The translations under genes were made by a program, and so were the position numbers. A stretch of DNA of 64,000 nt from Lysinibacillus sp. 2017 (GTDB lineage: Bacteria; Bacillota; Bacilli; Bacillales_A; Planococcaceae), in NCBI RefSeq assembly GCF_003073375.1, contig NZ_CP029002.1, positions 1,660,001 to 1,724,000 on the forward strand, read 5' to 3'. Below the pieces are notes generated by a model that was given only the letters and a program-made list of their open reading frames with translations, did not search any database and was not told the origin of the DNA. Numbering within the stretch: position 1 is the first letter of the stretch; every line of letters begins with the position of its first letter. This document shows, piece after piece, positions 7,220-42,983 of this stretch.

Positions 7220-7783
7220 ATGAAATGTACAGAGAGAAATTATATTAGCCGACTCAAAAAGAAAAAAGAAGACGCACTTGAATATATAATGAATCATTAC
7301 GGTGGTTTAGTACACGGTATCACTCATCAAATTTTGGGACATATTAGCCGTCAAGCTGTCGATGAATGTGTGAATGATACATTTTTACTGATTTGGCAAC
7401 GTGCGCATCAATTTGATGGAGATACAAAAGCCTTTAAAAAGTGGGTTGGCATGATTACGAAATATAAGGCCATTGATTATTATCGCGCCTTAGAAAAGCA
7501 AAAGACACGTGAAAAAATTGATGAACAGGTGATTTTGGCGCAAGCAATACCTGATATGCAAATGACCTATATACAAAAGGAACAAAGAGATGAGCTATTA
7601 GCTGCCATTAGTGGATTGCCAGAAATAGATCGCGACATTTTCATGATGAAATACTTTTTAGATCTACCAAGTGGTGAAATCGCAGAAGCTTTACAGTTGT
7701 CTGTATCTGCTATCGATAATCGATTATCACGTGGTCGGAAAAAGCTTGCTCAAAATATAAAATTAAAGGAGCAATTCATATGA
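7220..7783 (+). CDS. ECF RNA polymerase sigma factor
   Basis: A 187-residue sigma-70-family protein. Region 2 spans about residues 20-90 (DECVNDTFLLIWQRAHQF, then FKKWVGMITKYKAIDYYR) and region 4 about 125-180 (LPEIDRDIFMMKYFLDL, then ASAIDNRLSRGRKKL-like residues). It directs polymerase to a small regulon, usually including its own operon. Its stop overlaps the anti-sigma start by four bases, typical of co-translated sigma/anti-sigma pairs. GGGGCGAG precedes the ATG. The inducing signal is unknown. Confidence 0.9.
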   Translation: MKCTERNYISRLKKKKEDALEYIMNHYGGLVHGITHQILGHISRQAVDECVNDTFLLIWQRAHQFDGDTKAFKKWVGMITKYKAIDYYRALEKQKTREKIDEQVILAQAIPDMQMTYIQKEQRDELLAAISGLPEIDRDIFMMKYFLDLPSGEIAEALQLSVSAIDNRLSRGRKKLAQNIKLKEQFI

Positions 7784-8802
7784 ATGATGAAATGAAACGA
7801 TTCGTGCAAATGGATATAGATACAGTAGAAGAAATACCACTAACAGACATACAAAAGCAGAAAATCCGTAAAAATGCACGTATAAAAAAAGTACCAAATC
7901 GTAAGTGGAACAAATTGCTTACAGCTGCCGTTGTAAGCTTAGTAGTGATTTTTGGAAGTGTATATGCATTACCGACTATCGCCAGTCAGTTGCCTTTTGT
8001 TGAAAATATTTTAGAGAAAATTGATCCTAACTTTGTACCTAAAAACTATGAGGATCTCGCGACAATTATTAACCAAGTGGAATCCAGTAATGGCATTGAT
8101 ATGATGATTGAAAATGCTGTTTATGATGGTACGACATTAATGGTGACATATGCCATCCATTCCGACAAAGATTTAGGAGAACAGCCTATGACGGGTACAA
8201 TGTTAGATATAAAGGGAGCAATTGTTGCAACAGGGACTTCATCATTAGATAAATCTGCTAACGGTCTTTATACCGGTCTGAGCTCAGTAACCCCTAAATT
8301 TAATAAGAACATGGACGTATTGCAAATTAAGTGGCAGCCTAAAACAATTACAAATCCCGAGACCAATGAAACGTTTGAAGGAGATTGGTCATTTGCTTTT
8401 ACAATGGATGCACTTCCTAGCAAATCTGAACAATTAACAACAACTATAACGGATGATAACGCGCAAATCCAAATTCATACCGTTGACTATACGGATTTAT
8501 CAACAGTTATCCATTATGAATATAACATCGACCCAGCCATTATGAAAAAGTACCCGCTATCATCCATTCATATCGTAAAAGCGGTCGATACTTTTGGCAA
8601 TGAGTATGATATTCATGACAATGGTGGAATGATTTCAAAAGAAGGTCACGGTTTTAATTGGAGTTTTGCCTTATATGATTTACCGGAGGATGTATCGACA
8701 ATTACATTAACAGCTGAACTGTCTTATGTGGCACAATCAGGTGTCATCACGTCAGATATGAGTGAATTGCTAGAGCCAATTATAGTGAAACTTGAGAGAT
8801 AG
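7780..8802 (+). CDS. DUF4179-domain membrane anti-sigma factor
   Basis: A 340-residue protein with a short cytosolic N-terminus, one membrane segment (about residues 45-66, LLTAAVVSLVVIFGSVYALP) and a large extracytoplasmic region. The latter has DUF4179 features (IDMMIENAVYDGTTLMVTYA) and a C-terminal beta-rich part. In Bacillales such proteins are encoded directly after an ECF sigma and sequester it at the membrane until a signal arrives. The sigma partner is the upstream gene. The stress sensed is unknown. Confidence 0.85.
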   Translation: MNDEMKRFVQMDIDTVEEIPLTDIQKQKIRKNARIKKVPNRKWNKLLTAAVVSLVVIFGSVYALPTIASQLPFVENILEKIDPNFVPKNYEDLATIINQVESSNGIDMMIENAVYDGTTLMVTYAIHSDKDLGEQPMTGTMLDIKGAIVATGTSSLDKSANGLYTGLSSVTPKFNKNMDVLQIKWQPKTITNPETNETFEGDWSFAFTMDALPSKSEQLTTTITDDNAQIQIHTVDYTDLSTVIHYEYNIDPAIMKKYPLSSIHIVKAVDTFGNEYDIHDNGGMISKEGHGFNWSFALYDLPEDVSTITLTAELSYVAQSGVITSDMSELLEPIIVKLER

Positions 8803-17251: not shown

Positions 17252-17302
17252 CGGATTTACAAAGTTAAGCAAATAATGTTCCGAAACGTGAACTACACCC
17301 TT
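17252..17302 (+). repeat. Degenerate first copy (R1) of the cassette repeat
   Basis: AGATTTATGCGG, then TTTACAAAG and AAATAATGTTCCGAAACG, resembles the left arm and core of the repeats found at 19148-29034, but the right half is missing. Directly after it, TTGTTAGA-TGTG-TCTAACAA (about 17310-17330) precedes an orphan AAGGAGGTG and a four-codon GTG frame, possibly a lost cassette. Confidence 0.4.
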
Positions 17303-17406
17303 GTTAGATGTGTCTAACAAGGAGGTGCATTTTAGTGAAAAGGATATAGGCAGTATTTGTCGAATTAAACCTATGTAGAAAAAATGTTTATTTGGAGTGA
17401 AATATT

Positions 17407-18717
17407 ATGGCTACATCAGAAAAAGTAAGGCAAATGTTAGATTCATATAACAAAAATGGATATTTAAATGGATCAATTCTTGTAGCATCTAAAGGGAATA
17501 TCCTTGAAAATAAAGGATTTGGTTATGCTAATATAGAACACGCTATACCTAATTCAAAATCAACTAAATACCGTATAGGATCACTTTCTAAAGCCTTTAC
17601 AGCTTATGCTATTTTTCAATTACTTGATAGAGGAAAATTAAATATAAACGATATGATTAGTAAATACATAGATAATTATCCGGTTGGAGAGAATATATCA
17701 ATTTATCATTGCTTAACTAATACATCTGGAATTCCGAATTATACTAGTTTTCGAGACTTTTGGTCTAGTACAATGCGGTTACCATCTTCTCTAAAACAAC
17801 TAATCGATACATTTAAAGATCAACCTTTAAACTTTAAACCCGGAGAACAATTTGAATATTCTAATTCTGGTTATGCTATTTTAACAGCTATCATTGAACA
17901 AGTGTCGGGTTTATCTTATTCGAATTATATGCGAGAGGAGATATTTATTCCTTTTGGAATGAAGAATACTGGTTGTGATGATGGTAGAAAGATAATACCC
18001 GAGTTGGCATCAGGTTATTCTTTATGGGAAGAGACAATTCACGCTGAATATACCGATATGTCATTTCCCTTAGGTTCTTATGGGCTATATTCCACGACAG
18101 AAGACTTGTATATCTGGGATCAAACATTAAAAAATTCTAATCTTTTGAATGATAATTTAATGACAAAAATGTTTACACCCCACTATTCTTCTTATGCATC
18201 TGGGTGGGTTGTATCTGAAATACTTAGTAGAAAATGTATACATCACTTTGGTGATTTAAGTGGCTATTGCAGTAGTTTTCTTCGATTTATTGATGAAGAA
18301 GTTACTGTAATCTTTTTAAGTAATTTGAATATTACTCCTGTATCGCATTTAACAAAAGAGGTAGCAAAAGTGGTTTTTGATGAAGAAGTTACCCTTCCAA
18401 GGCCATTAGAATCCATTCAATTAAAGAATCCCCCAAAAATAGTAGGTGAATATCAGTTTGAAAATGACCAAAGTAAAAAGGTGCATATCTCTGAAAAACT
18501 AAATGAACTATATTTGATAGCTCCAAAAATGTATGGTGTACTCTATAAATATAGACTGATTCCTGTTGAACAAGAATTATATAAAATAACTTTTTTAACT
18601 GAATATATAAATGAAAAAGTAATCCTTCATTATTCAAGAACTTCAGGAGAAATTGATTATATGCAATACATTGACCTGTATGGTGAGGAATACATATGTT
18701 ATCGCATTGAATTTTAA
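17407..18717 (+). CDS. Serine hydrolase, class C beta-lactamase/penicillin-binding fold
   Basis: A 436-residue protein without a signal peptide. The nucleophile motif SxxK is in IGSLSKAF (about residue 59), the second motif YxN in YSNSGY (about 155), and a HxG-like element in HFGDLSGY. The catalytic domain is followed by a roughly 100-residue beta-rich tail. Members of this broad family include esterases, D-amino peptidases and beta-lactamases; the substrate is not deducible. It is the first gene of the repeat-delimited region, with R1 before and R2 after. Confidence 0.85.
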   Translation: MATSEKVRQMLDSYNKNGYLNGSILVASKGNILENKGFGYANIEHAIPNSKSTKYRIGSLSKAFTAYAIFQLLDRGKLNINDMISKYIDNYPVGENISIYHCLTNTSGIPNYTSFRDFWSSTMRLPSSLKQLIDTFKDQPLNFKPGEQFEYSNSGYAILTAIIEQVSGLSYSNYMREEIFIPFGMKNTGCDDGRKIIPELASGYSLWEETIHAEYTDMSFPLGSYGLYSTTEDLYIWDQTLKNSNLLNDNLMTKMFTPHYSSYASGWVVSEILSRKCIHHFGDLSGYCSSFLRFIDEEVTVIFLSNLNITPVSHLTKEVAKVVFDEEVTLPRPLESIQLKNPPKIVGEYQFENDQSKKVHISEKLNELYLIAPKMYGVLYKYRLIPVEQELYKITFLTEYINEKVILHYSRTSGEIDYMQYIDLYGEEYICYRIEF

Positions 18718-18780
18718 GTACTATTAGAAGGCATGATACGAGTTGAAGTGGCTTATCAAGACATTAGTCGTGGATGGTAG

Positions 18781-18815
18781 ATATGGGGTCACTTCAACAC
18801 CGCTTTGGGAATATT
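18781..18815 (+). repeat. Cassette repeat R2 (right half)
   Basis: GGGGTCACTTCAACACCGC followed by TTTGGGAATATTTAAAGG matches the right half of R6. GTTGAAGTG at 18742-18750 is complementary to its CACTTCAAC. The left core (CGTTCCCAAA) is absent, so the copy is truncated or has been rearranged. Confidence 0.6.
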
Positions 18816-18894
18816 TAAAGGAATGAAATTCTATGTGTCGAAATAATTTAAATCTGTAATTTGAAGTTTTAGCAAAGAACGGTGGTTTAACATT

Positions 18895-19134
18895 ATGAAT
18901 ATTAAGACGGTTATTATTAGTTTTATCGTTATATATATATTGGTTAGCCTTCCAGCGATATTAGGGATTGGATATGTTATTGATTGGGTGCCAGAAGCGA
19001 CATTTCTACAAAAATTTAAGGGCTATGTGATTGAAGGATTTACAAATAACTACCTTTTCAAAATAGTAATTTCAATAATAGTCAGTGTTATATTTAGCTT
19101 TTTTCTACAAAAACGTAACGTTAAGTTGGATTAA
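18895..19134 (+). CDS. Small two-segment membrane protein
   Basis: A 79-residue protein with two hydrophobic segments (about residues 5-27 and 52-72) and a basic C-terminus (LQKRNVKLD). The ribosome site is weak (AACGGTGG, 7 bases before ATG). No family was recognised. It is a single-gene unit bounded by repeats R2 and R3. Confidence 0.6.
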   Translation: MNIKTVIISFIVIYILVSLPAILGIGYVIDWVPEATFLQKFKGYVIEGFTNNYLFKIVISIIVSVIFSFFLQKRNVKLD

Positions 19135-19147
19135 GACATTTATTCAA

Positions 19148-19197
19148 GCTATACAAAATAACGTTACCAAACGTAAATTAGACGCGTATTTGGTAAC
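19148..19197 (+). repeat. Cassette repeat R3
   Basis: The left arm CTATACAAAATAAC leads into GTTACCAAA (19163-19171), paired with TTTGGTAAC (19189-19197) around a 17-base centre unlike that of other copies. Conserved ends with a private centre are the hallmark of this repeat family. Confidence 0.75.
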
Positions 19198-19266
19198 TAT
19201 CTAACTTCATAGTTACATTATTTGGTATATTATTTTTAATTAAAACTATTTAGAAAGAGGAATATA

Positions 19267-19647
19267 ATGAGCCTTTATCGTTATTTTGCTTCAAAAAATC
19301 CCTTACCGACTGTTATAAATTTAGAATACCATTTTGGGGAACAGTTTGAAGTTCTTCCTTGTAGAAAAAATCCTCCTATCGCATCAGGGGGGCAAATTCA
19401 AAAGCCTAATATCTACAAAGTGAGAGGGAATATAAATGAAACGTTTTTAGATCAACTTGTTGACTATATTAAGGAGAATGTTGAAGAACAAAACCGAGTT
19501 GAATTTTGGGCAATATGGCACAGTGAAAAAGTACCTTCTAAAAACATACATCGAATAAATCCACAGCAAGTAACGATTGAAGATTTACGATTCTTACATA
19601 ACAATGAAAATAGCTGCATTAAATTTTTCCCAAAAAATAAAAAGTAG
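19267..19647 (+). CDS. Hypothetical protein, 126 aa
   Basis: A soluble protein starting MSLYRYFASKNPLP, seven bases after AGAAAGAGG. It contains an acidic helix (FLDQLVDYIKENVEEQNRVE) followed by FWAIWHSEK. No domain was recognised and there is no signal or membrane segment. It is a single-gene unit between R3 and the convergent VOC gene. Confidence 0.65.
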   Translation: MSLYRYFASKNPLPTVINLEYHFGEQFEVLPCRKNPPIASGGQIQKPNIYKVRGNINETFLDQLVDYIKENVEEQNRVEFWAIWHSEKVPSKNIHRINPQQVTIEDLRFLHNNENSCIKFFPKNKK

Positions 19648-19735
19648 CCTTCTTGAAGTTCAAATGAGGGATATATGTTTCCAACGTCGCTTTGGGTGCA
19701 TTTTTTAAATTAATAAAATAGGTCAATTGAAGATA

Positions 19736-19767
19736 AAATAAAAAAGGTTCAACAAATTTGTTGAACT
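19736..19767 (-). terminator. Terminator of the VOC gene
   Basis: GTTCAACAAATTTGTTGAAC (19747-19766) is a perfect 20-base palindrome. Read on the minus strand it is followed by CCTTTTTT, fitting termination of the VOC gene whose stop is at 19775. Confidence 0.75.
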
Positions 19768-19774
19768 TAACTGG

Positions 19775-20143
19775 TTATACATTTTCAAATTGAAGGTATT
19801 CTAAAATATTTCCGAATGGGTCAGTGAAACTAATATATTTTCCTGGGGGACAATCAGTTGGTTCTTCTATTATAAAATTCACGTCTTTTTCTTTTAAGGA
19901 TTTGACCGTCTCAAAAATATTATCTGTTTGCAAACCTAATACAACTCTTGAAGTTTTATTATCTTGATTGTAAGTTACATTATCATTCTCTTCTAAAATA
20001 ATTGGTAACTCGCCATGTACAAGTGAAGCAATATTAGGACCGTATTGCTTGTTTAGTTCAAAACCTAAAGTATTGGTATAAAAGTCAATCGCTTGATTTA
20101 GATTTGGTACGTAAATACTTATAACACAAACTTTATTAACCAC
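19775..20143 (-). CDS. VOC-family (glyoxalase/bleomycin-resistance-like) protein
   Basis: A 122-residue protein with paired beta-alpha-beta-beta-beta modules. The start VCVISIYVPNLNQAIDFYTN and the end FTDPFGNILEYLQF are classic VOC signatures; the C-terminal Glu (LEY) is a usual metal ligand. Such proteins isomerise, cleave or bind small molecules; the specific role is unknown. It is one of only two minus-strand units in the repeat region. GGTGGGAT precedes its start on the minus strand. Confidence 0.85.
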   Translation of the reverse strand: MVNKVCVISIYVPNLNQAIDFYTNTLGFELNKQYGPNIASLVHGELPIILEENDNVTYNQDNKTSRVVLGLQTDNIFETVKSLKEKDVNFIIEEPTDCPPGKYISFTDPFGNILEYLQFENV

Positions 20144-20180
20144 TTTATCCCACCTTTTGTTTATTGTGGTTAAATTATAC

Positions 20181-20430
20181 TTTATAAAGCATACAAAATA
20201 AACCTAATAAACGTTGCCAAATGACAATTTGGGAGCACTTCAAACACCGAAAAACACTAATTTAACAGTATTTGTCGGTGTTTTTTATAGAAAATAAGGC
20301 TCTGAGACGCTGTGAAAATTATTCTAAAGAGGACTGTTCGATCCCACTTGTTCTGAATGGCTGTAACATATAAATAGACTCTCAAAGAATTGTTACCAAA
20401 CGACGGTTTGGAGACATTCTACTTCAATTA
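20181..20430 (+). repeat. Cassette repeat R4, long double form
   Basis: The left arm TTTATAAAGCATACAAAATA and core CGTTGCCAAAT-GACA-ATTTGGGAG (about 20212-20233) are followed by a terminator-like hairpin (AACACCGA/TCGGTGTT plus T run, 20243-20287). Next come a roughly 75-bp block (20286-20361) nearly identical to 25850-25926 and a second core, GTTACCAAAC-GAC-GGTTTGGAGAC, ending CTTCAATTA. It is the same composite as R9, with no ORF between its two cores. Confidence 0.75.
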
Positions 20431-20476
20431 CCTTAATTAAATATATGGTAAAATTGTACAAAAGGAGGTTTTTTAA

Positions 20477-21409
20477 TTGTTTAATGAAATGAAAGATATG
20501 ATTAATCATTTGGAAGATACAGAATTAAAATCATTATTACTTTAAGTCTTTTTGCATATGCAAACTGTTGAGGAGAGAAAAGGCTATTCAGAGCAGCAAT
20601 TCTTTTTAGATATAAAAAATACATATAACGACCTGTTAGCATATAAAAAAAATCAAGCTAGTGTCGATCAAACACAATTTCACACGACGCATATTGTATT
20701 TGATGATTCACCTGCTGGTTGTTTAAAAATCGCTTTAAAAGAGTCTGATTTAATGCAACAAGAAAACATATTTAACTTTTCCGATTTATTTTCAATAGGT
20801 CCGATTTGGAACTTACATGCCGTAGAAGGAATCAATAATCGATACGAGTGGTTACGTACACATATAAGCATGGATGATGAAGTGCTATTCAATTATGAAG
20901 ACAACTTTAAACAAAATCTATTAACGATTGAACAAATGCCAAAGCATCACCAAGTTGTGATTTGGGCTGGAGAAAATGCACATGAACAAACGGCTTTGCG
21001 ATTTATGCTCTATGTATTAAAAGAAAAAACAAAAACGATATTGTGATGATCAATATAAATGAAGCCTATAAAACGCATTTTGAACGACCTGAAATTGATT
21101 TTACCCCACGACATATGGGTGAACTTTCAGCGAAGCAATTACAACAAATGCATGAAAACAAGAAAAATTGGCATGCACTAACACAATCAGAACGTAAAGC
21201 ATTCGAACAACAATGGGAGCGACTATGTGTCGAGAAAGAAGCTTTGCGAATCTGGCAATAGAATCATTGGCGAAGTAATGGGTCATTTAAATCAATATAT
21301 TGGCGACCAATTTATCCAGTATCGCGTCATACGCTTAATCATGAATGGCGTATTGGACATGGAAGGTGTGCCGACAGCAATGCGATACTATAGCATTAAA
21401 ATTAAATAA
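20477..21409 (+). pseudogene. Decayed DUF1835/DUF3658-domain gene
   Basis: Three collinear pieces of one protein can be read. A TTG start at 20477 after AAAGGAGG gives MFNEMKDMINHLEDTELKS and then hits TAA (20543-20545). The same frame continues as 20552-21046 (HTTHIVFDDSPAGCLKIALK, then IFNFSDLFSIGPIWNL), typical of DUF1835. A frameshift at about 21043 leads to PRHMGELSAKQLQ to 21261, and a second at about 21255 to IIGEVMGHLNQYIGDQF, ending 21409. One nonsense codon and two frameshifts make a functional product unlikely, unless these are assembly errors. Confidence 0.8.
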
Positions 21410-21452
21410 TACATTAGCTTCCTAGCCTAGATGGCAACTGTTATTTCAAAAA

Positions 21453-21495
21453 TCGTTCCTAAACACCGCTTTGGGGACGTTTTTCTTCAATTAAC
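21453..21495 (+). repeat. Cassette repeat R5 (short form)
   Basis: CGTTCCTAAA-CACCGC-TTTGGGGACG is followed by TTTTTCTTCAATTAACGAG. The cores pair with two mismatches, and the centre retains the CACCGC found in R2. No left arm is recognisable. Confidence 0.7.
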
Positions 21496-21557
21496 GAGAT
21501 AGTAGTTCAACAATAAAATAGTATAATTTATAATAAATGGGATTTTAGGGGGATTAG

Positions 21558-21977
21558 ATGAATTTTAAGAAACCAGCAGGATTTGGTATAAGATTTGTAG
21601 CAAGTATTATAGATTTTTTAATTATTTCGTCAATATTTGGAATCGTATTTTACATGATAAACGGTAATTATTCTATCGAACAGACCGAAGAATTCACTTT
21701 TCAAGCATTATATACCTTGTATTTGACCATTACTCCTATTTTGTGGGGTGGATACGTAATCGGCAAGAAAATTTGTAAGGTTAAAATAAAGCGTTTTAAC
21801 GATGATGAGAACCCTACAATACTCAATATGATTATGAGAGAAGTGGTTGGTAAATATATCATTGTATTAGCTACCTTTGGAATATCAGTATTGGTCAGTG
21901 GACTTATGGTTATCTTACGAGAAGACAAGAGAGCCATTCATGATTTCATTGGCGGGACTTATGTTAATAAAGAATAA
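21558..21977 (+). CDS. RDD-family membrane protein
   Basis: A 139-residue protein with the RDD pattern: a first segment beginning FGIRFVASIIDFLIIS (Arg and Asp), a second segment, a conserved basic loop (GKKICKVKIKRF), and a last segment ending DKRAIHDFIGGTYV. RDD proteins are small multi-pass membrane proteins, some linked to ion or compatible-solute transport. The ATG follows AGGGGG. It is a single-gene unit between R5 and R6. Confidence 0.85.
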   Translation: MNFKKPAGFGIRFVASIIDFLIISSIFGIVFYMINGNYSIEQTEEFTFQALYTLYLTITPILWGGYVIGKKICKVKIKRFNDDENPTILNMIMREVVGKYIIVLATFGISVLVSGLMVILREDKRAIHDFIGGTYVNKE

Positions 21978-21987
21978 ATTTTTCTTT

Positions 21988-22138
21988 CACTAACAGATGC
22001 TCTAGTACAACAACGATTTATAAAACATACAAATCCATATAAAATAACGTTCCCAAATAAAAGTTAGGTAATCAATAACCATGTCTAACTTTTAGGGTTC
22101 ACTTCAACATCGCTTTGGGAAGGTTATGCTTAATTAAA
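21988..22138 (+). repeat. Cassette repeat R6 (most complete copy)
   Basis: CACTAACAG, CGATTTATAAAACATACAAA, the left core CGTTCCCAAA (22048-22057), the inner pair AGTTAG/CTAACT, GGTTCACTTCAACATCGC and the right core TTTGGGAAGGTT (22114-22125), then CTTAATTAAA. Outer and inner arms both pair, giving a long bulged hairpin. R9 and R14 share its centre almost exactly. Confidence 0.8.
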
Positions 22139-22181
22139 TTATTATGAACTCCAAATCTTGAATATTAAGAGGTGAGCTATA

Positions 22182-22526
22182 TTGATAGAGTTAAAAACAA
22201 CACTTTTAAACTTAGAAAAGCAACTAATGTATTATCGATTACACGATTTTGAAACGATTCTATCCGAAGATTTTATTGAGTTTGGAACGTCGGGGAAAGT
22301 ATATGATAAGACATCACAATTAAGTTTCGTAAATGAAAAAGGATTAACCGAAATTCCATTTATAATTACGAATTTTTATGTAAATTTATTATCGGAGAAC
22401 ATTGCACATATAACTTATCAAACAGAATCAATAGTTGAGGGTTCCAAAACATTAAGAAGTTCTATTTGGCGATATGAAAATACACGTTGGTATCTGTATT
22501 TTCATCAGGGAACACGTACTCTTTAA
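22182..22526 (+). CDS. DUF4440/NTF2-like protein
   Basis: A 114-residue single cystatin/NTF2-fold protein. Residues such as ILSEDFIEFGTSGKVYDK and the end LRSSIWRYENTRWYLYFHQG are typical of DUF4440. It starts at a TTG after GAGGTGAGC. Family members bind small ligands or act in unknown resistance functions. A paralogue follows after 85 bases with no repeat between, so the two form one unit between R6 and R7. Confidence 0.82.
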   Translation: MIELKTTLLNLEKQLMYYRLHDFETILSEDFIEFGTSGKVYDKTSQLSFVNEKGLTEIPFIITNFYVNLLSENIAHITYQTESIVEGSKTLRSSIWRYENTRWYLYFHQGTRTL

Positions 22527-22610
22527 ATTATAGTTGTAAATTGAATGAATAATCTAAATAAATATAAATGCAAGTTTGGGTAATAATTATGAAAAGAAAA
22601 GGTGAAATAG

Positions 22611-22976
22611 ATGCGGGAATTTTCTTCGATAGAGAAACAACTCTTCGAATTAGAAAAAAAATTATTAGAACCTGAAGTTCGTAGTTCAAAAGCTGAATTA
22701 TGTAAGTTACTGGCGGAAAGTTTTTTTGAATTCGGAAGTTCGGGTAAAGTGCTGTATAAAGATGAAAATATTAATGAAATACAACTTAGTGAAGTACAAA
22801 TGAGTTTAAGTGATTTTGAAATTCATCCATTATCAGAGGAAATTATTTTAACAACTTATAAAATTTATAATAAGTTAAACCAACAATCTTCTTTACGTAG
22901 TTCAATATGGAAATTAGTTGATGGACATTGGAAAATGCATTTTCATCAGGGTACAAAAATACCTTCTTCACTTTAA
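22611..22976 (+). CDS. DUF4440/NTF2-like protein, tandem paralogue
   Basis: A 121-residue protein aligned with its upstream neighbour through the DUF4440 signatures LLAESFFEFGSSGKVLYKDE and SLRSSIWKLVDGHWKMHFHQ. AAAGGTG precedes the ATG. The pair is probably an old tandem duplication, since identity is moderate. The ligand and role are unknown. Confidence 0.82.
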   Translation: MREFSSIEKQLFELEKKLLEPEVRSSKAELCKLLAESFFEFGSSGKVLYKDENINEIQLSEVQMSLSDFEIHPLSEEIILTTYKIYNKLNQQSSLRSSIWKLVDGHWKMHFHQGTKIPSSL

Positions 22977-22992
22977 TTTTTATTTAATTAAA

Positions 22993-23075
22993 CGATTTAT
23001 AAAGTATACAATTGCAATCAATAAAACGTTCCCAAATCAAAGCTTGGTAACATTTTTCATTCAATTTTCACGAAA
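22993..23075 (+). repeat. Cassette repeat R7
   Basis: CGATTTATAAAGTATACAAT, then ATAAAACGTTCCCAA and TTGGTAACATT with the short centre ATCAAAGC, and CATTCAATTTTCACG at the right. The following 195 bases up to the CPBP gene hold only a TGCAGCAA/TTTGCTGCA hairpin (about 23105-23131). Confidence 0.75.
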
Positions 23076-23273
23076 GGAACCATCCTCACTTTCATTTTCT
23101 GTGGTGCAGCAATGTTGTTTTGCTGCATGGATAGCTAGCTGTGGACTTTGTCAATTTAAAATAATTTATTTACAAAAATATGGAACTTAAAATTATTTCA
23201 ATCGTATTTAAGTAATAAGTTTATTGAAGTTATGAATGTAGAATAGATTATTGATTATAAAGGAGCGTGAAAA

Positions 23274-23882
23274 ATGATAATTAATTTGTTAATTAGTGCA
23301 ATTTTCCAAGTATTGCTTTTTTCAATATTTCCATTCGTTTGGTGGCTGGTTACTGCTAGAAAAGAAACTAGGTTCTTAACTTGGTTAGGAATTAAAAAAA
23401 TAAAAATAAGAAACAATCAAACGTATATGGCTTTATTTTTATTCATTATTATTATTTTAGTAATACCCGCTTATATAGCAATTAATTTTTATATCGATGA
23501 ATCGGCAATGGCAACCTCACAGTTTACAGGTAAAGGGATTTCAGCATTTATCCCAGCTTTAATCTATGCCTTTTTGCAAACTGGACTATCAGAAGAATTA
23601 TTTTTCCGTGGTTTTCTAGCTAAAAGATTAATAAATAAATTCGGTTTTCAACTCGGTAATTCTATACAGGGTTTTCTATTTGGATTAATGCATGGTGCAA
23701 TTTTTATGATGCTACTCAATCCAATACAACTAATAATTATTATTCTAATTACTGGAATTGGAGGATATTTGCTTGGCTGGATAAATGAGAAGCAATCAAA
23801 CGGTTCAATTATTTCAAGTTGGCTAATACACGGGATTGTTAATACAATCTCTTCCACTTTGGCTTTATTTAATTTGTTGTAA
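23274..23882 (+). CDS. CPBP-family intramembrane glutamic endopeptidase
   Basis: A 202-residue membrane protein with about six segments and the CPBP (Abi) motifs: EELFFRGFLAKRL (EExxxR, about residue 115), GLMHG (second motif His) and WLIHGIVNT (third motif). Members act like type II CAAX proteases and are common in bacteriocin immunity loci; the substrate here is unknown. GGAGCGTG precedes the ATG. It is a single-gene unit between R7 and R8. Confidence 0.88.
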   Translation: MIINLLISAIFQVLLFSIFPFVWWLVTARKETRFLTWLGIKKIKIRNNQTYMALFLFIIIILVIPAYIAINFYIDESAMATSQFTGKGISAFIPALIYAFLQTGLSEELFFRGFLAKRLINKFGFQLGNSIQGFLFGLMHGAIFMMLLNPIQLIIIILITGIGGYLLGWINEKQSNGSIISSWLIHGIVNTISSTLALFNLL

Positions 23883-23895
23883 TGATATATTTTAG

Positions 23896-24045
23896 TGCTA
23901 CAAGCATTCATAACGTATACATAAACAGACCTAATAACGTTCCCAAATGAAACTTTTGGAACATTCAGGTGAGCAGCTAGGACATCTTCTTGTCTTAGCT
24001 GCTTTTCTTCCCCCATCGCTTTGGAGAATTTTTTATTCAACTAGC
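23896..24045 (+). repeat. Cassette repeat R8 with embedded terminator
   Basis: The left arm CGTATACATAAACAGACC and core GTTCCCAAAT-GAAAC-TTTTGGAAC are followed by a hairpin, AGCAGCTAGGACA/TGTCTTAGCTGCT with TTTTC (23974-24007). A right part CATCGC-TTTGGAGAATTTTTTATTCAAC ends the copy. The terminator occupies the variable centre, as in R4 and R9. Confidence 0.7.
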
Positions 24046-24128
24046 TCCACTGTTATAATTTTAAATTTCTTATAAAAAAGTGCATCTTTTTTCGATGACT
24101 GGTTCTCTAATAATTAGGGGGTGAAAAC

Positions 24129-24671
24129 ATGACGGTTAACGAAAAGAAGGTAAAGCAAGCTATAAGAGGAGATCGCGAAGCTCTACTATTTTTACTAAAT
24201 CAAGAAAAAGATAAGCTTTATAGAACTGCTTATAGTTATGTTCAAAATAAAGAGGATGCACTAGATGTTTTTCAGCAAACGGTGCTACTGGCGATTGAGT
24301 CCATTCATCAGCTACGAGAGCCAAAGTATTTCACGACATGGCTGATGAAAATTTGTATTAATGCGTCGCTTCATGTATTACATAAACAAAAAAATGTAAT
24401 TTTAATTGATGAGTTAAAATTGCAAACTCTCTCTACTGAAATCGCAACATCTGATGAAAAGTTGGACTTGCTTGATGCGATCTATCGGTTAGATGAAAAA
24501 TATAAAACGGTACTGCTTTTAAAATATTATGAGGATTTGACTTTCGAACAAATAGCACAGGTGCTTGGCGAACCGATTGGCACAGTGAAATCGAATGGTA
24601 AAAGAGCGTTAGAGAAAATAAAAAAGGCATTGAAAGGAGTGTACATAGATGAACGAACAAAACCGATTTAA
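24129..24671 (+). CDS. ECF RNA polymerase sigma factor
   Basis: A 180-residue sigma-70-family protein with region 2 (YRTAYSYVQNKEDALDVFQQ to FTTWLMKICINASL) and region 4 (LDEKYKTVLLLKYYEDLTFE to GTVKSNGKRALEKIK). It is closely related to the sigma at 13319, with the same LKGVY(I/L)DE end overlapping the next ATG. It forms the only clear operon inside the repeat region together with its anti-sigma, between R8 and R9. GGGGGTG precedes the ATG. Confidence 0.9.
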   Translation: MTVNEKKVKQAIRGDREALLFLLNQEKDKLYRTAYSYVQNKEDALDVFQQTVLLAIESIHQLREPKYFTTWLMKICINASLHVLHKQKNVILIDELKLQTLSTEIATSDEKLDLLDAIYRLDEKYKTVLLLKYYEDLTFEQIAQVLGEPIGTVKSNGKRALEKIKKALKGVYIDERTKPI

Positions 24672-25656
24672 AGAGGCTATGAATGAAATTCCTGTTCCTT
24701 CTAAAGAATTAGACGCTATTTTGGCTGACGCTTTTCAGCAAGAGAAGAAGCAGCGGAAATTCCCTTTTAAACGAATGGTTAAATATACTGCTGCCGTGGG
24801 AATTCTATCGATTGGTCTAATTTCATCTGTTTATGTTTCACCTGCATTTGCTAACTTTGTTACACAAATTCCGATTATTGGTCAGGCATTCGACTATTTC
24901 ATTTCACAAGAAGGCTACTATCAAGCATATGAGGAAATCAGTACAGATATTGGTTTAGTTGAAGAAAGCAATGGGATTGAGATAATTATTGAGCAAGCAT
25001 TTTACGATGGGAGTACGGTAACTCTTTCATACGTTTTACGAGCTGAAGAGGATTTAGGTTCATTTCCGACTTTTGAAAATATGCCAACGAATATAAGTAA
25101 CGCAGGCTATGATGGGAAGTATGTGAACGGTGTTGGCTATGTATGCATGATGACGGTATCCATGCGTGATAACCCACAAGACAAAGTGAATATAGAGTGG
25201 AGTCCTCAAGCAATTCATTCAGGAGAAAAAGTAATGAAAGGTGACTGGCATTTTGAATTTTCTTTAAACAAGCTAGAAGGAAAACAGATCGTAATTAATG
25301 AGCAAGTAAACAAAGAGGGGGTATCGATCGAGCTAATCGATGCAATCAAAACAGATGTTAATTTAACGATCAATTACTTACAAGATATCGATCCTGCTGT
25401 TCATGAAAGATGGAGGTATGTTGAGGCTGAGTTGAGTGCGATTGATAATTTAGGCAATAAATATGAAGTTCCATATAATGGTGGATCTGACACAAAAGGT
25501 GGGGATTCGAGTGAAGATATCACCTGGAATGCAACAATTCATGGACTGGATTCCGAGGCAACATCGATTACGTTTTACCCATTCGCCCATGTAAGTAATA
25601 GTCAAAGTGATAATAAACGAATTGATTTCGAAGCGATTACGATTGAATTGAATTAA
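24649..25656 (+). CDS. DUF4179-domain membrane anti-sigma factor
   Basis: A 335-residue protein with a cytosolic N-terminus (MNEQNRFKEAMNEIPVPSKE), one membrane segment (about residues 41-62) and an extracytoplasmic DUF4179 region (GIEIIIEQAFYDGSTVTLSY) followed by a beta-rich C-terminal domain. The start lies 23 bases inside the sigma gene. It probably holds its sigma partner at the membrane. Its N-terminal peptide is the one found fused to an ABC ATPase at 13845. Confidence 0.88.
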   Translation: MNEQNRFKEAMNEIPVPSKELDAILADAFQQEKKQRKFPFKRMVKYTAAVGILSIGLISSVYVSPAFANFVTQIPIIGQAFDYFISQEGYYQAYEEISTDIGLVEESNGIEIIIEQAFYDGSTVTLSYVLRAEEDLGSFPTFENMPTNISNAGYDGKYVNGVGYVCMMTVSMRDNPQDKVNIEWSPQAIHSGEKVMKGDWHFEFSLNKLEGKQIVINEQVNKEGVSIELIDAIKTDVNLTINYLQDIDPAVHERWRYVEAELSAIDNLGNKYEVPYNGGSDTKGGDSSEDITWNATIHGLDSEATSITFYPFAHVSNSQSDNKRIDFEAITIELN

Positions 25657-25670
25657 CTATTTATCATTAT

Positions 25671-25975
25671 TGCACTAACAGGGACCCCAATGTAACAACA
25701 ACTAATACTGTATAAAAAATAAATACAAATAACGTTCCCAAATCAAAGTTAGGTAACCAATAACCATGTCTAACTTTTAGGGGTCACTTCAAGTTTGGGA
25801 ACCTTTCAAACAGCGACAGACACTGATTTCACAGTGTTTGTCGCTGTTTTTATAGAAAATAACGCTCTGAGACGCTGTGAAAAATTATTTTAAAGAGGAC
25901 TGTTCGATCCACTTGTTCTGAATGGCATGAAATGTTACCAAACGACGCTTTGGGAATGTTCTATGAGTGCTATAA
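25671..25975 (+). repeat. Cassette repeat R9, long double form
   Basis: CACTAACAGGGACC, then AAATACAAATAACGTTCCC, the R6/R14-type centre, GTTTGGGAACC, a terminator-like hairpin (AACAGCGACA/TGTCGCTGTT plus T run, 25809-25845), the 75-bp block shared with R4, and a second core GTTACCAAAC-GAC-GCTTTGGGAATGTT. The hairpin stem differs from that of R4 but keeps pairing, which suggests selection for structure. Confidence 0.8.
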
Positions 25976-26034
25976 TTTCAGTTTTAAAATCCTTATCATG
26001 TATACTTGTATAAAAGTTATGGAGGAGGATTTGT

Positions 26035-26253
26035 ATGGCAAGATGCACAAATTGTAACTATAAATGGACGTTTAAAGAGGTCATGACTGCTGGATTTTCA
26101 AAAGACGGTAAATCATGTCCTAACTGTGGAGAAAAACAGTATGTTTCAAAAACAACTCAAAACATTATGAGCTTAGGTTCTATTAGTTTTCTGCTTGCAA
26201 ATATTTTCCCCTTTTTTATCAAACTTAGTAGCAAAAAAGATGGTTATCAATAA
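26035..26253 (+). CDS. TIGR04104-type zinc-ribbon protein
   Basis: A 72-residue protein with CTNCNYKW and CPNCGEKQ, two CxxC knuckles 21 residues apart, then a hydrophobic C-terminal segment (about residues 45-62). This is the pattern of the small TIGR04104 putative zinc finger proteins of Bacillales. GGAGGAGG lies seven bases before the ATG. The role is unknown. It is a single-gene unit between R9 and R10. Confidence 0.85.
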   Translation: MARCTNCNYKWTFKEVMTAGFSKDGKSCPNCGEKQYVSKTTQNIMSLGSISFLLANIFPFFIKLSSKKDGYQ

Positions 26254-26257
26254 TTAA

Positions 26258-26312
26258 TACGATACACAAATAACGTTCCCAAAGGACACTTTGGGGGCGA
26301 TTTGAATAGATA
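26258..26312 (+). repeat. Cassette repeat R10 (short form)
   Basis: CGATACACAAATAACGTTCC, with core GTTCCCAAA-GGACAC-TTTGGGGGC. It begins five bases after the zinc-ribbon stop codon. Confidence 0.75.
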
Positions 26313-26340
26313 ACACAATAATTTCATTTGAGGTGGTATT

Positions 26341-26679
26341 ATTTTTAAAAAAATAGCATTAGTTTTAATCGTTTCTAGTGTCATTTGTTTTTTATATTTT
26401 TATAAAACACCCATACTTAGTGCCGACGCAGCTTTAATTAATGCGGAAAAATATTTACTAAATCCATCAGAAGAATGGGGAACGATTTTATTTGATGGAC
26501 TAGAAGGAATCCCAGAAGAAGATATACATGTAAACCTTTCCGAAAAATCTGGATTTTTGAATGAATTATTTAATAGAATGCAATGGGAAGTGACAATAAA
26601 AGCCCCTGAAATGAATGCGACGATCGTGATAGACGCCCATAATGGAAAATTTATAGATTTAGTCGGCACTTTTAGCTAA
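26341..26679 (+). CDS. Hypothetical exported or membrane-anchored protein, apparent ATT start
   Basis: A 112-codon frame reading FKKIALVLIVSSVICFLYFY after the first codon, i.e. a signal or anchor segment, then a small acidic domain (NPSEEWGTILFDGLEGIPEE) ending DLVGTFS. No ATG, GTG or TTG lies between the in-frame TGA at 26329 and the anchor. ATT at 26341 is seven bases after GAGG (26330-26333). The next in-frame ATG (about 26578) would discard most of the protein. No family was recognised. It is a unit between R10 and R11. Confidence 0.65.
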   Translation: MFKKIALVLIVSSVICFLYFYKTPILSADAALINAEKYLLNPSEEWGTILFDGLEGIPEEDIHVNLSEKSGFLNELFNRMQWEVTIKAPEMNATIVIDAHNGKFIDLVGTFS

Positions 26680-26683
26680 GTGT

Positions 26684-26730
26684 AGAATATACAATCTCAT
26701 ACAAATAAACGTTCCCAAATGACACGGAAA
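26684..26730 (+). repeat. Cassette repeat R11 (left half)
   Basis: ATATACAATCTCATACAAAT, then AAACGTTCCCAAATGACAC. The right core is missing or too diverged to recognise. Confidence 0.65.
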
Positions 26731-26770
26731 TTTATATGCAATTTTTCAGTTAGAAAGGAGAAGGATTAAT

Positions 26771-26887
26771 ATTAAAGAGTTAATAAAAAATGAAAACTCT
26801 AGTAGCAAGCCGCTATTATTAGCAGCAATTGCATTATTTATTATATTAAGTGGTTTGACTGCTTCTGATTTTAAACTATATATTTAG
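26771..26887 (+). CDS. Very small membrane peptide, apparent ATT start
   Basis: A 38-codon frame: a polar start (KELIKNENSSSKP), then one hydrophobic segment (LLLAAIALFIILSGLTA). It begins with ATT ten bases after AAAGGAG (26754-26760), with no conventional start available. Its position alone between repeats R11 and R12 supports it as a unit. No homologue family was recognised, so confidence is moderate at best. Confidence 0.45.
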   Translation: MKELIKNENSSSKPLLLAAIALFIILSGLTASDFKLYI

Positions 26888-26900
26888 CAATCGAATGTAA

Positions 26901-26945
26901 ATGCTATGCAATAAAACGTTCCCAAATCAAAGTTAAGTAACTATA
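26901..26945 (+). repeat. Cassette repeat R12 (left half)
   Basis: CTATGCAATAAAACGTTCCC followed by AAATCAAAGTTAAGTAAC. The centre begins like R6, R9 and R14, but the right core is absent. The next gene is on the opposite strand. Confidence 0.65.
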
Positions 26946-27037
26946 TCCCCCTTCATCATACCCTGTAATGGAAAATCAAGTGTATTGTTTTAAATAAGAT
27001 TGACCAACTATAATTTAAGAGTATAGCTCATTAATAT

Positions 27038-27808
27038 CTATTCCATTTCTTCTTGCTGAATATAATATTCTATCGCTTGATCAAACCATTTTTGTTCATC
27101 TTCTGTAAAAGGAGAAGGTGTCATATTTTCAAGTTCTTGAATATCAAGTTCTCCTTCTATATTCGTATCAGCGAGTTTTTGTATCAAATCCTCACCAAGA
27201 AATGAAAAAAATTCTTCTACATAGTTCTTAATCATTCGTTGTACTTTCGGGTCCTCTACGGGTTTACCATATAATTGTTTCACTTCTTTAGACACTTGAA
27301 TAAACGTTTTATCTAAAGAGATTTTATCTTCTTCCGGTTTCTTTTCTAACTCTTCCGCGATATCCGTTAACATATGGCGATCCATCCATTCTTCTTGTAT
27401 ATGTTGAATACGCATACCGTGAATAAGGTTAAGTATTAAGTTACTATCCACTGTTCCCTCTTCCTCAATTAACCTAATTACTCTATTAATAGATTTCATT
27501 GACTGTTCGATTTGTTTTTTCTCTTTTTCTAAAGCTTGAAAATGGAGATACAAGCTTTCGTTTAAATCAACGGTAAAGCTTGTTTTATTTAATAAATTTT
27601 TTATTTCATCCAGACTATATCCTAGGTATTTTAAACTCAAAATTTTTTGTAATATTATAATATCTTGATAATTGTAAATGCGATGCCCTGAAGAAGGATT
27701 CTTTTCTGGTCGTAATAAACCAATTTCATCATAGTAATGTAAAGTAGGAATAGGTATTCCTGTTTTTTCTGAAAACTCCCCAACGGAAAACTTGTTATTG
27801 TTATTCAT
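27038..27808 (-). CDS. MerR-family transcriptional regulator
   Basis: A 256-residue protein with an N-terminal MerR helix-turn-helix (FSVGEFSEKTGIPIPTLHYY, then DEIGLLRPEKN), a linking coiled coil (about residues 85-130) and a helical acidic C-terminal domain of the TipAS-like ligand-binding type. The start at 27808 has AGGAGG seven bases upstream; the frame continues 15 codons further without a ribosome site. The target and ligand are unknown. It is a minus-strand unit between R12 and R13. Confidence 0.88.
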   Translation of the reverse strand: MNNNNKFSVGEFSEKTGIPIPTLHYYDEIGLLRPEKNPSSGHRIYNYQDIIILQKILSLKYLGYSLDEIKNLLNKTSFTVDLNESLYLHFQALEKEKKQIEQSMKSINRVIRLIEEEGTVDSNLILNLIHGMRIQHIQEEWMDRHMLTDIAEELEKKPEEDKISLDKTFIQVSKEVKQLYGKPVEDPKVQRMIKNYVEEFFSFLGEDLIQKLADTNIEGELDIQELENMTPSPFTEDEQKWFDQAIEYYIQQEEME

Positions 27809-28060
27809 CAAAATTCCTCCTAACAAAAGTATAAGTTCATTATAAAACCTCAAGTAACTTGAGGTTCAAGGGATAAATTTGAAATTGATATATTGTCACA
27901 ATGAGCGGTTCAATCACTAAAATAAAGAAACCTTCCATTGTCATTAAAACAACCTTCTTTCATAAGTATCTTGTTTATTATTATTACAACTATTGTAATT
28001 TTATATTTAAATTCCTATAAAGTGAAGTCGAGTGTTGTTAAATATTTCAAAATATAACTT

Positions 28061-28125
28061 AGGAAGCATACAAATAAAATCTAATAAACGTTCAATGCCA
28101 CTTAGGGAATGTTTTTTCACTATTC
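28061..28125 (+). repeat. Cassette repeat R13 (degenerate)
   Basis: AGGAAGCATACAAATAAAAT, then CTAATAAACGTTC-AATGCCAC-TTAGGGAATGTT and TTTTCACTATTC. The left core has lost CCAAA, but both arms are recognisable. It lies in the 415-bp gap between the divergent MerR and HTH genes; the rest of that gap upstream of 28061 shows nothing recognisable. Confidence 0.6.
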
Positions 28126-28129
28126 AATA

Positions 28130-28203
28130 AAAAGCAGGTCAATGTAAAGATATCTTTACATTGACCTGCTTTTATTATAATATACATGTAAAGATATCTT
28201 TAC
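28130..28203 (+). promoter_or_regulatory. Tandem palindromic operators upstream of the HTH gene
   Basis: Bases 28130-28173 form a perfect 44-base palindrome centred on GTAAAGATATCTTTAC (28144-28159). The same 16-base palindrome recurs at 28188-28203, exactly 44 bases further on, 20 bases before the HTH start. A TATAAT (28174-28181 region) lies between the two. Two identical symmetrical sites about four helical turns apart around a promoter indicate autoregulation by the dimeric HTH protein, perhaps by looping. Confidence 0.75.
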
Positions 28204-28223
28204 TTTTTTGTGGAGGTGCAAAT

Positions 28224-28436
28224 TTGAAAGTAATTAATCACATCAAAGAAATCCGATTAAAAAAAGGCATTACACAAGTACAAATGGCAGAGGATTTACA
28301 AATCACTAGACAAACTATAAATGCAATTGAAAAAAACAAGTATAATCCTAGCCTTGAGTTAGCACTAAAACTGGTGAAGTATTTTGATGTACCGATTGAA
28401 CAGTTATTTTATTTAGATGAAATGGAGGGGAAATAA
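28224..28436 (+). CDS. XRE-family HTH transcriptional regulator
   Basis: A 70-residue protein, nearly all Cro/C1-type HTH (ITQVQMAEDLQITRQTINAI, then EKNKYNPSLELALKL). The start is TTG at 28224, five bases after GGAGGTG and CAAAT; a longer frame back to 28161 runs through the operator palindrome and is unlikely. The stop abuts the ATG of the membrane protein. It is similar in size and motif to the HTH at 9248. Confidence 0.88.
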   Translation: MKVINHIKEIRLKKGITQVQMAEDLQITRQTINAIEKNKYNPSLELALKLVKYFDVPIEQLFYLDEMEGK

Positions 28437-28847
28437 ATGTCACCTAAGAAGTTGCAAATAATTACTTGGATTGTAATTATAGGGTGTTTTTTGATAGGTG
28501 GGTTATTGGGGATTTATTTGATAGGAAAAGAAACAGGGCGATTTAATTATGACTTATTATTGCCAATTTGCCTTGGTACATTTGGTGGTTTTCTAATTTT
28601 TATCGTATTTTCAAAGTTCAAGCAAAAAAGAAATGGAAATGTGCCAGATATTGATGAGCGTAGTGTGTCATTAATTCAGAAGTATTTTTTGATTGCACTT
28701 TATGTTATTTTATTGGCTAGTGGTGCTGCGTTACTCATTGCCTATTCACTGGGAATCGAATATATCGAAACAGGTTTATTAATTTTCTGTTTGTTCGGTT
28801 TGTATACTATACTTGGTCTAGGTACTTTAGTAGTGAAAAGATTATAA
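28437..28847 (+). CDS. Four-segment membrane protein paired with an XRE regulator
   Basis: A 136-residue protein with four hydrophobic segments and a cytosolic stretch containing DIDERSVSLIQKY. The DER motif next to a small XRE gene is shared with 8934-9245 and recalls DUF2178-like proteins. GGAGGGG lies six bases before the ATG, and the HTH stop is immediately upstream. The function is unknown. It is the last complete unit of the repeat region. Confidence 0.75.
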   Translation: MSPKKLQIITWIVIIGCFLIGGLLGIYLIGKETGRFNYDLLLPICLGTFGGFLIFIVFSKFKQKRNGNVPDIDERSVSLIQKYFLIALYVILLASGAALLIAYSLGIEYIETGLLIFCLFGLYTILGLGTLVVKRL

Positions 28848-28942
28848 AATGATAATCTAATTTAACATAGTAAGTTCTCTTCAACCATGCGGCACGATTG
28901 TTGGAGAAGCGTCATTAAATTCAAAGTTCTTAGTTCATTAAA

Positions 28943-29034
28943 GATTTATAAAATATGCAGAATCATACAAAATAACGTTTCCAAATTAAAGTTAGGTAAC
29001 CAATAACCATGTCTAACTTTTAGGGGTCACTTCA
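28943..29034 (+). repeat. Cassette repeat R14 (last copy, right core missing)
   Basis: GATTTATAAAATATGCAGAA, ATACAAAATAACGTTTCC, then the centre shared with R6 and R9 (GTTAGGTAACCAATAACC to GGGGTCACTTCA). The expected CACCGC-TTTGGGAA is replaced by sequence that belongs to a HAAS-type gene, so the array ends inside or against that gene. Confidence 0.75.

Positions 29035-41228: not shown

Positions 41229-42983
<1,755 letters not shown>

Follow-up and report, generated by a model that had tools for sequence, protein, structure and literature searches.

Two described systems are the closest relatives of the one considered here: integrons (integrase IntI, sites attI and attC), together with their sedentary chromosomal forms and clusters of attC sites lacking integron-integrases (CALIN), and the dif modules of Acinetobacter plasmids (pdif), which are served by XerC/XerD. 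In the single-Xer systems XerS, XerH and XerA, the recombinase gene and its site are adjacent. The part of the integron literature considered here comprises sections of PMC8618304 and of the IntegronFinder 2.0 paper (PMC9024848), the latter recording a single complete integron in Firmicutes within its genome set, plus a few CALIN, i.e., complete integrons are rare in Bacillota; Smyshlyaev et al. (PMC8138268, consulted in part) divide the simple tyrosine recombinases into subgroups, the Xer and the integron-like ones among them. In this study, we analyzed a 64-kb stretch of Lysinibacillus sp. 2017 DNA (hereafter the window), in which small genes at 17.2-29.0 kb are separated by repeats. With a probability of roughly 0.78, we consider this array to be one of many in a genome-wide site-specific gene-capture system, the recombinase of which is most likely a third Xer-family protein of the same genome. 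The whole analysis was computational and the system is known here from sequence alone, i.e., the site anatomy, arrays, module boundaries, enrichment of alignment ends, co-occurrence, and the conserved palindrome and box were computed. G and L codes denote the compared genomes (one per species) and the loci extracted from them, respectively, C numbers are contigs, and G000 is the genome of the window, grouped with Solibacillus in the comparison.

The system shares with integrons small and diverse genes between same-oriented recombination sites, a tyrosine recombinase acting, presumably, in trans on many arrays, a presumed landing site at one array end and a LexA-type box. It differs from them in that the recombinase is an Xer-type protein scoring under the IntI cut-offs, the 12-6-12 sites are conserved in sequence, arrays and their terminal tail elements are many and dispersed, genes point toward the presumed landing site, and the recombinase gene lies away from the arrays, near the terminus; an attI site next to the integrase with an array attached was not encountered. 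The Acinetobacter dif modules are similar in their two arms with a 6-bp spacer, inversely oriented neighboring sites (a feature found here), two alternating module types and shuffling with crossover at the site. In contrast to them, the arrays described here are chromosomal and belong to Bacillota, one module type consists mostly of short linkers, a third Xer with a core upstream of its gene is present, and there are tail elements. Finally, the single-Xer systems likewise combine an Xer-family protein with a neighboring site, whereas here XerC and XerD are also present and the sites are repeated dozens of times, bounding gene modules. No paper describing such a system in these genera was found in a search judged by titles and the beginnings of abstracts, with preprints and most subscription journals outside its range.

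With at most one mismatch, the motif TTTGGGAAYGTT has 17 matches in the window versus 1.26 expected in shuffled sequences, 16 of them within 18.8-29.0 kb and a single stray at 42.5 kb, while AATAACGTTCCCAAA (at most two mismatches) has 12 matches versus 0.31 expected, all of them at 17.27-28.99 kb. The 13 matrix-listed sites in the region 15.0-32.0 kb share one orientation, and the sites are situated between genes. The initial annotation, made on the window alone, had described the repeats as uniformly oriented and sparing complete genes, and these counts agree with it. It had also seen none elsewhere in the window, which holds apart from the stray match; over the whole genome, the left core (at most two mismatches) gave 97 matches, distributed over many clusters, versus 12 for the reversed pattern. 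Random scattering over the genome had been named there as an observation that would speak against cassettes; the repeats do occur genome-wide, but they are arranged in arrays of gene units.

These arrays are spread across G000 and concentrated in the terminus half, as are the sites of other genomes (51/51 in G032, 42/50 in G000, 18/19 in G114, and 14/17 in G144). Co-orientation with replication (counts copied by hand) is strong in G032 (48/51), present in G000 (34/50, P 0.008), and not significant in G114 (13/19) or G144 (11/17). Arrays were also found on small contigs, i.e., G092:C2 (44.8 kb) and G108:C2, C3, and C5 (126, 51, and 15 kb), which are possibly plasmids; the two assemblies consist of 8 and 7 contigs, respectively. 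The same anatomy was read in four genomes of three other genera (G206, G045, G016, and G098), and shuffled sequence of the same 88 kb gave no matrix hits. Rfam scans of the window and three array loci revealed no known RNA family.

Weight matrices were refined on the array loci from seven Solibacillus genomes and, with the threshold at its lowest, listed 178 LH and 154 RH sites. They describe each core site as a 12-6-12 structure, in which a 6-bp spacer separates two inverted arms of 12 bp. The LH type reads AACGTTCCCAAA-TSAAAG-TTWGGKAAC, with the conserved R arm AACGTTCCCAAA, the spacer TSAAAG and a weaker L arm, and its inverse, the RH type, reads GTTACCAAA-CGACGC-TTTGGGAAYGTT, with a spacer near CGACGC. 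LH and RH form inverted pairs, with the conserved R arm toward the gene and the weaker L arm toward a short linker. The 92 intervals running from an RH site to the next LH site are gene modules with a median length of 704 bp, and 37 of the 63 intervals from LH to RH are short linkers (13-176 bp, grouping near 50, 154, and 176); the remaining 26 measure at least 400 bp, and a site inside them was probably overlooked. Terminator-like hairpins were recognized by eye in many linkers. The initial view of each copy as one palindrome with a private centre had to be replaced: a copy comprises up to two inverted cores, 13-176 bp apart in the 37 close pairs, and many linkers belong to families common to many copies. 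A tally of the window array, made partly by eye, gave 11-12 sites resembling LH and about 8 resembling RH, with decay in several, and no tail; in several copies only one core of the pair is seen, or two R sides look fused without a linker (e.g., at 23025).

The modules are gene-bearing units: among 149 intervals measuring 200-4000 bp, 142 contain an open reading frame (ORF) of at least 60 aa, and the longest ORF runs from RH to LH in 124 of the 142. The Pfam matches of the 142 proteins are spread over 66 families, and among the 25 shown the commonest are GNAT acetyltransferases (6), DUF4179/DUF5643 proteins (5), and isochorismatases, Rce1-like and NUDIX proteins (4 each). Such a functional mix resembles integron cassette content. 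The defence-like character initially ascribed to the cargo found no support, as PADLOC applied to the 142 proteins detected no enrichment of defence genes and assigned only PDC-S07 (4), mad2 (2), and mad1 (2). For one of the 142 proteins the match was PF00302, the family of chloramphenicol acetyltransferases (E 1.7e-86).

A Pfam scan of G000 gave 12 tyrosine-recombinase matches, 10 of them above the cut-off. Besides XerC and XerD, both present, the genome encodes a third Xer-family recombinase (324 aa from a TTG start) at C1:1.866 Mb of 3.738 Mb, near the replication terminus, sharing 31% identity with XerD and 28% with XerC. The protein matches PF00589 (E 3e-41), its best solved-structure matches are XerA and XerD, and it scores under the XerC, XerD and IntI cut-offs; the models for IntI gave 88.1 bits versus a cut-off of 265 (TIGR02249) and 57.6 versus 435 (PRK15417). 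As judged by eye, it retains the Phage_integrase catalytic motifs R-K-HxxR-H-Y, at what we take to be the corresponding residues. Its named homologs (27 loci) come from Solibacillus, Lysinibacillus, Metasolibacillus, and Bacillus ndiopicus, with one clostridial metagenome-assembled genome at 44%.

Directly upstream of this gene in G000 there is a palindromic R-R copy of the core. Of 58 genomes from 11 genera, 53 genomes from 10 genera have such a palindromic core (at least 16 of 18 positions) upstream of the gene, and 37 of the 53 lie outside this genus; the 58 comprised the 30 best recombinase matches and 28 genomes picked to cover other genera, i.e., they were not a random sample, and the counts of upstream cores and strict boxes were copied by hand. 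The palindrome precedes the extrapolated start by 35-40 bp in 42 genomes (25-159 bp overall). The bases on its two sides vary by genome (AAGG/CCTT, AATG/CATT, AACG/CGTT, AAAG/CTTT, and two others) but mirror each other in 42 of 53 cases, and nine of the 11 asymmetric cases belong to the genus that includes Lysinibacillus (g14). In G000 no other core is listed in the 9-kb region around the gene, and the arrays end in separate tails. Moreover, a strict GAACN4GTTC motif occurs 109-130 bp upstream in 19 of 30 regions of the Solibacillus/Lysinibacillus clade, and relaxed matching detected a LexA-type box in 27 of the 53 core-positive genomes and in none of six more distant genera. SOS control of the gene, as predicted from the motif, would therefore be a feature of this clade. 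It parallels the LexA control of integron integrases described in the consulted part of PMC3108266.

Two further elements were observed in the recombinase neighborhood. An Xer-like protein without catalytic HxxR/Tyr (by eye) is encoded 2.3 kb upstream of the third Xer (L044:1726-2625 of G000, i.e., C1:1862725-1863624); its homologs, with 36-62% identity, are located near the recombinase in 16 of the 27 named loci (flanks of up to 6 kb), and it is possibly an accessory factor. Directly behind the recombinase gene, the sequence TTATGTAAACT is present in L044 (5901-5915), L063, L066, and L089, with one-base variants in L064 and L065 and varying left arms; we assume that it resembles the right half of the Bacillus-type dif.

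The third Xer (E 1e-60 or better) was found in 95 of 250 family genomes, and in 51 of the 52 genomes with at least three repeat matches (a count made by hand; Fisher P 2e-25). Among genomes lacking the recombinase inside repeat-bearing genera, G059 has no repeats and G050 has one. Alternatively, the repeats might constitute a dif-module-like system run by the housekeeping XerC/XerD proteins, both encoded by G000, with the third Xer having another role. Modules with internal R arms alternate here with modules with internal L arms, each site having a 6-bp spacer, and this does fit the C and D modules as described in the consulted part of PMC13141974. We regard this as unlikely: the repeats follow the third Xer, yet genomes without it keep XerC/XerD-level homologs (five inspected), and the core palindrome precedes the gene of the third Xer. 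No Bacillus-type dif was found in G000 (up to 3 mismatches), so the array arms are not comparable with a dif of this genome.

When 61 array loci were compared all against all, 169 segments (minimum length 200 bp, minimum identity 85%) proved to be shared. Those measuring 350 bp or more have 218 alignment ends, 43 of which are located at cores, versus a null mean of 5.1 and maximum of 14 (2000 rotations). A clear case is a 1,860-bp RH-to-LH module, 98.0% identical between G000 (L041:1547-3406) and G114 (L170:9749-7891), in which homology stops in the RH and LH cores and the flanks are dissimilar; the recombinase loci of the two genomes are 74% identical. Similarly, G032 (L163) and G120 (L177) share a 439-bp LH-to-LH unit with 99.5% identity, adjoined by a tail in both, at 71% identity of the recombinase loci. 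Within G000, the copy shared by L041 and L047 starts at an RH core, continues through the LH core and is interrupted by extra DNA in L041, and the 2,045-bp segment that contains the sigma-70/DUF4179 module of the window is found again at C1:2.249-2.251 Mb (96.1%).

The junctions of such segments point to the position of the exchange. Of 16 paired LH junctions, 13 share the gene side and three the linker or tail side, and mean identity runs from 0.81 upstream through 0.96 (R arm), 0.78 (spacer), and 0.65 (L arm) to 0.39 downstream; for the four RH junctions the values along the site are 0.27, 0.69 (L arm), 0.54 (spacer), 0.83 (R arm), and 0.66. The 6-bp spacer is the overlap region of a tyrosine recombinase. 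As identity falls across the core at the 16 LH junctions, we place the exchange in this spacer or at its edge. Exchange confined to identical or almost identical spacers would be expected of dif modules; here the partners often differ in the spacer, which later mutation could account for. In 205 pairs with the same linker and different upstream sequences, spacer positions 4-6 appear to stay with the linker side; the reciprocal set (same upstream, different downstream; 313 pairs) was contaminated by a common upstream consensus and was excluded. Synteny of the right flank of the window (a DUF4097 gene) was uninformative, with a homolog in two of 15 other genomes of the genus at 32-33% identity.

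These data also bear on the notion that a dispersed miniature inverted-repeat transposable element or terminator repeat simply spread between genes that are shuffled by ordinary homologous recombination. The hairpins of many linkers agree with it, and shared linker or tail stretches of 200-300 bp could recombine homologously. The common orientation of sites within arrays, the co-orientation of the longest ORFs, modules with unrelated flanks that end at a core, and the link to a recombinase argue otherwise and make this explanation very improbable.

Many arrays terminate in a tail, a conserved element some 230 bp long that follows 55 of 173 LH sites and carries a terminator-like hairpin as well as motifs near TTTATACGTTGTTTTATGCAC and ATAAAATCGTGCATA. 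Of the 40 tails with room to search, 29 have no other site in the next 3 kb, versus 19 of 102 other LH sites. Tails are the putative insertion point, and 11 of them, with no site in the 3 kb upstream, may be landing sites that are still empty. Tail-ended arrays, together with the R-L-linker-L-R order, the co-oriented genes and the LexA-type box, are also what one would expect of a strongly diverged integron, in which the integrase would read single-stranded, attC-type folds and the tails would serve as attI. Pairing between the L'' and L' arms of true partners, with all linkers pooled (16 nt), indeed averaged 9.35 versus 8.75 in shuffles and was reached by 28 of 5000 shuffles, following a first pooled test with a mean of 9.53 versus 8.90 of 16 and a shuffle maximum of 9.68. 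Since linker classes and families are mixed in the pooled signal, it does not establish covariation: the observed pairing was reached by 4525 of 5000 shuffles within short linkers and by 707 of 5000 within long ones, and no such signal was present over the 9-nt box (2307 of 5000). Considering also the integrase score of 88 bits against a cut-off of 265 and genes facing toward, not away from, the presumed landing site, a diverged integron is quite unlikely. The attC likeness proposed initially is partial: the recombinase scores under the IntI cut-off, arm pairing exceeds that of shuffles only with linkers pooled, and the alternating R-module/L-linker layout resembles dif modules as well; the broader idea of a cassette system apart from classical integrons gains support from the interspecies modules, the co-occurring Xer with its upstream site and the gene orientation.

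Several observations weigh against a capture system run by the third Xer. Phylogeny confounds the co-occurrence, fewer than three repeat matches were obtained in 44 of the 95 genomes with the recombinase, and G168, with only XerC/D-level homologs, has five; they lie in two clusters (C2:57489-59292 and C30:3486-6542; L232, L238, L237, and L239), which are possibly arrays left without a recombinase. One genus, represented by five genomes and including Metasolibacillus, lacks the upstream core and has 0-4 repeat matches, and the palindrome could be merely an operator. Other tyrosine recombinases are encoded as well, and in L038 (G000:C1:3060000-3070000) two matches, a fragment at 3064192-3064287 and another at 3066392-3066937, lie within about 2 kb of an array. 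As many as 175 of the 218 alignment ends are away from cores, and in the strict test a core marks each of the four ends in only three of the shared segments, the others mostly having a core at one end or neither. Another site follows within 3 kb behind 11 of the 55 tails. Some RH-to-LH modules seem to move without either linker, which a single exchange, whether LH x LH or RH x RH, does not account for. For single dif modules with inverse sites on either side, a route through cointegrates has been proposed (PMC13141974, part consulted), and it may also explain this movement. The comparison is, moreover, one between species, with one genome each.

In the gene-capture system that we favor, the repeats would be the core sites of a tyrosine recombinase, with each gene module lying between two R arms that face inward (RH to LH) and short linkers with L-arm ends joining the modules. 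The third Xer would act on these sites by swapping strands within the 6-bp spacer, excising or reshuffling modules, and circular modules would be inserted mainly at the tails ending many arrays, possibly upon SOS induction. We lean slightly toward seeing here a third independent bacterial gene-cassette platform, in which an SOS-linked Xer paralog, encoded near the terminus and apparently inherited vertically, serves many landing sites scattered over the chromosome and small replicons of Bacillota, and arrays are assembled from separable gene modules and terminator linkers. If so, it would explain how these bacilli gather and trade small adaptive genes, provide an independent case of cassette capture built on an Xer-type recombinase, and offer short defined sites for genome engineering; many intergenic repeats of Lysinibacillus and Solibacillus would become predicted recombination sites. 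The parts of the window array are listed in Table 1.

Table 1. Sites and gene modules of the array in the window (positions in the 64-kb stretch).
Feature	Position	Strand	Basis or remark
Degenerate left core AATAATGTTCCGAAA, array start, weak	17272..17286	+	2 mismatches; absent from matrix list
First gene unit, beta-lactamase-fold protein (PF00144)	17407..18717	+	
Right core, R' box alone, TTTGGGAATATT	18804..18815	+	Core match
Left core AATAACGTTACCAAA	19157..19171	+	Core match
Weak RH core	19676..19702	+	Matrix score 16.6
LH core opening a complete LH-linker-RH pair	20210..20236	+	Matrix
RH core, partner of LH 20210	20392..20418	+	Matrix
Gene module, DUF1835 protein	20552..21046	+	
RH core, no LH partner listed	21455..21481	+	Matrix
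Gene module, RDD-family protein	21558..21977	+	
LH core; R' box at 22114-22125	22046..22072	+	Matrix, core match
Gene module, two DUF4440 proteins	22182..22976	+	
LH core seemingly fused to R' flank, no linker (R-R type joint)	23025..23051	+	Matrix; by eye versus L169
Gene module, Rce1-like (CAAX) protein	23274..23882	+	In 979-bp segment, 86.5% identity to G114, cores at ends
LH core, 3' limit of shared Rce1-like module	23936..23962	+	Matrix
Gene module, sigma-70-family factor and DUF4179/DUF5643 protein	24129..25656	+	
LH core of a complete pair	25731..25757	+	Matrix
Composite linker, terminator-like hairpin (by eye)	25758..25933	+	Linker family of L031 (95.8%) and L033 (92.5%)
RH core, 27/27 positions of typed consensus	25934..25960	+	Matrix
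Gene module, small protein with zinc-ribbon-like cysteine pattern (by eye), no Pfam match	26035..26253	+	
LH-type core	26272..26298	+	Matrix
LH-type core, R box intact, L box decayed	26708..26734	+	Matrix score 20.1
LH-type core	26915..26941	+	Matrix
Opposite-oriented gene module, MerR-family regulator	27038..27853	-	
Right R' box TTAGGGAATGTT	28102..28113	+	Core match
Gene module, helix-turn-helix protein and second small protein without Pfam match	28161..28847	+	
Last LH core; apparently truncated linker behind; not called tail	28974..29000	+	Matrix

Pairs of a sigma-factor-like gene and a DUF4179-type partner occur twice in the window, at 7220-8802 (by eye) and, inside the array, at 24129-25656. 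Two repetitive proteins are encoded farther downstream, one with long collagen-like Gly-x-Thr repeats (41235-42983) and one with a long Gly-Asn repeat tail (62597-63580).

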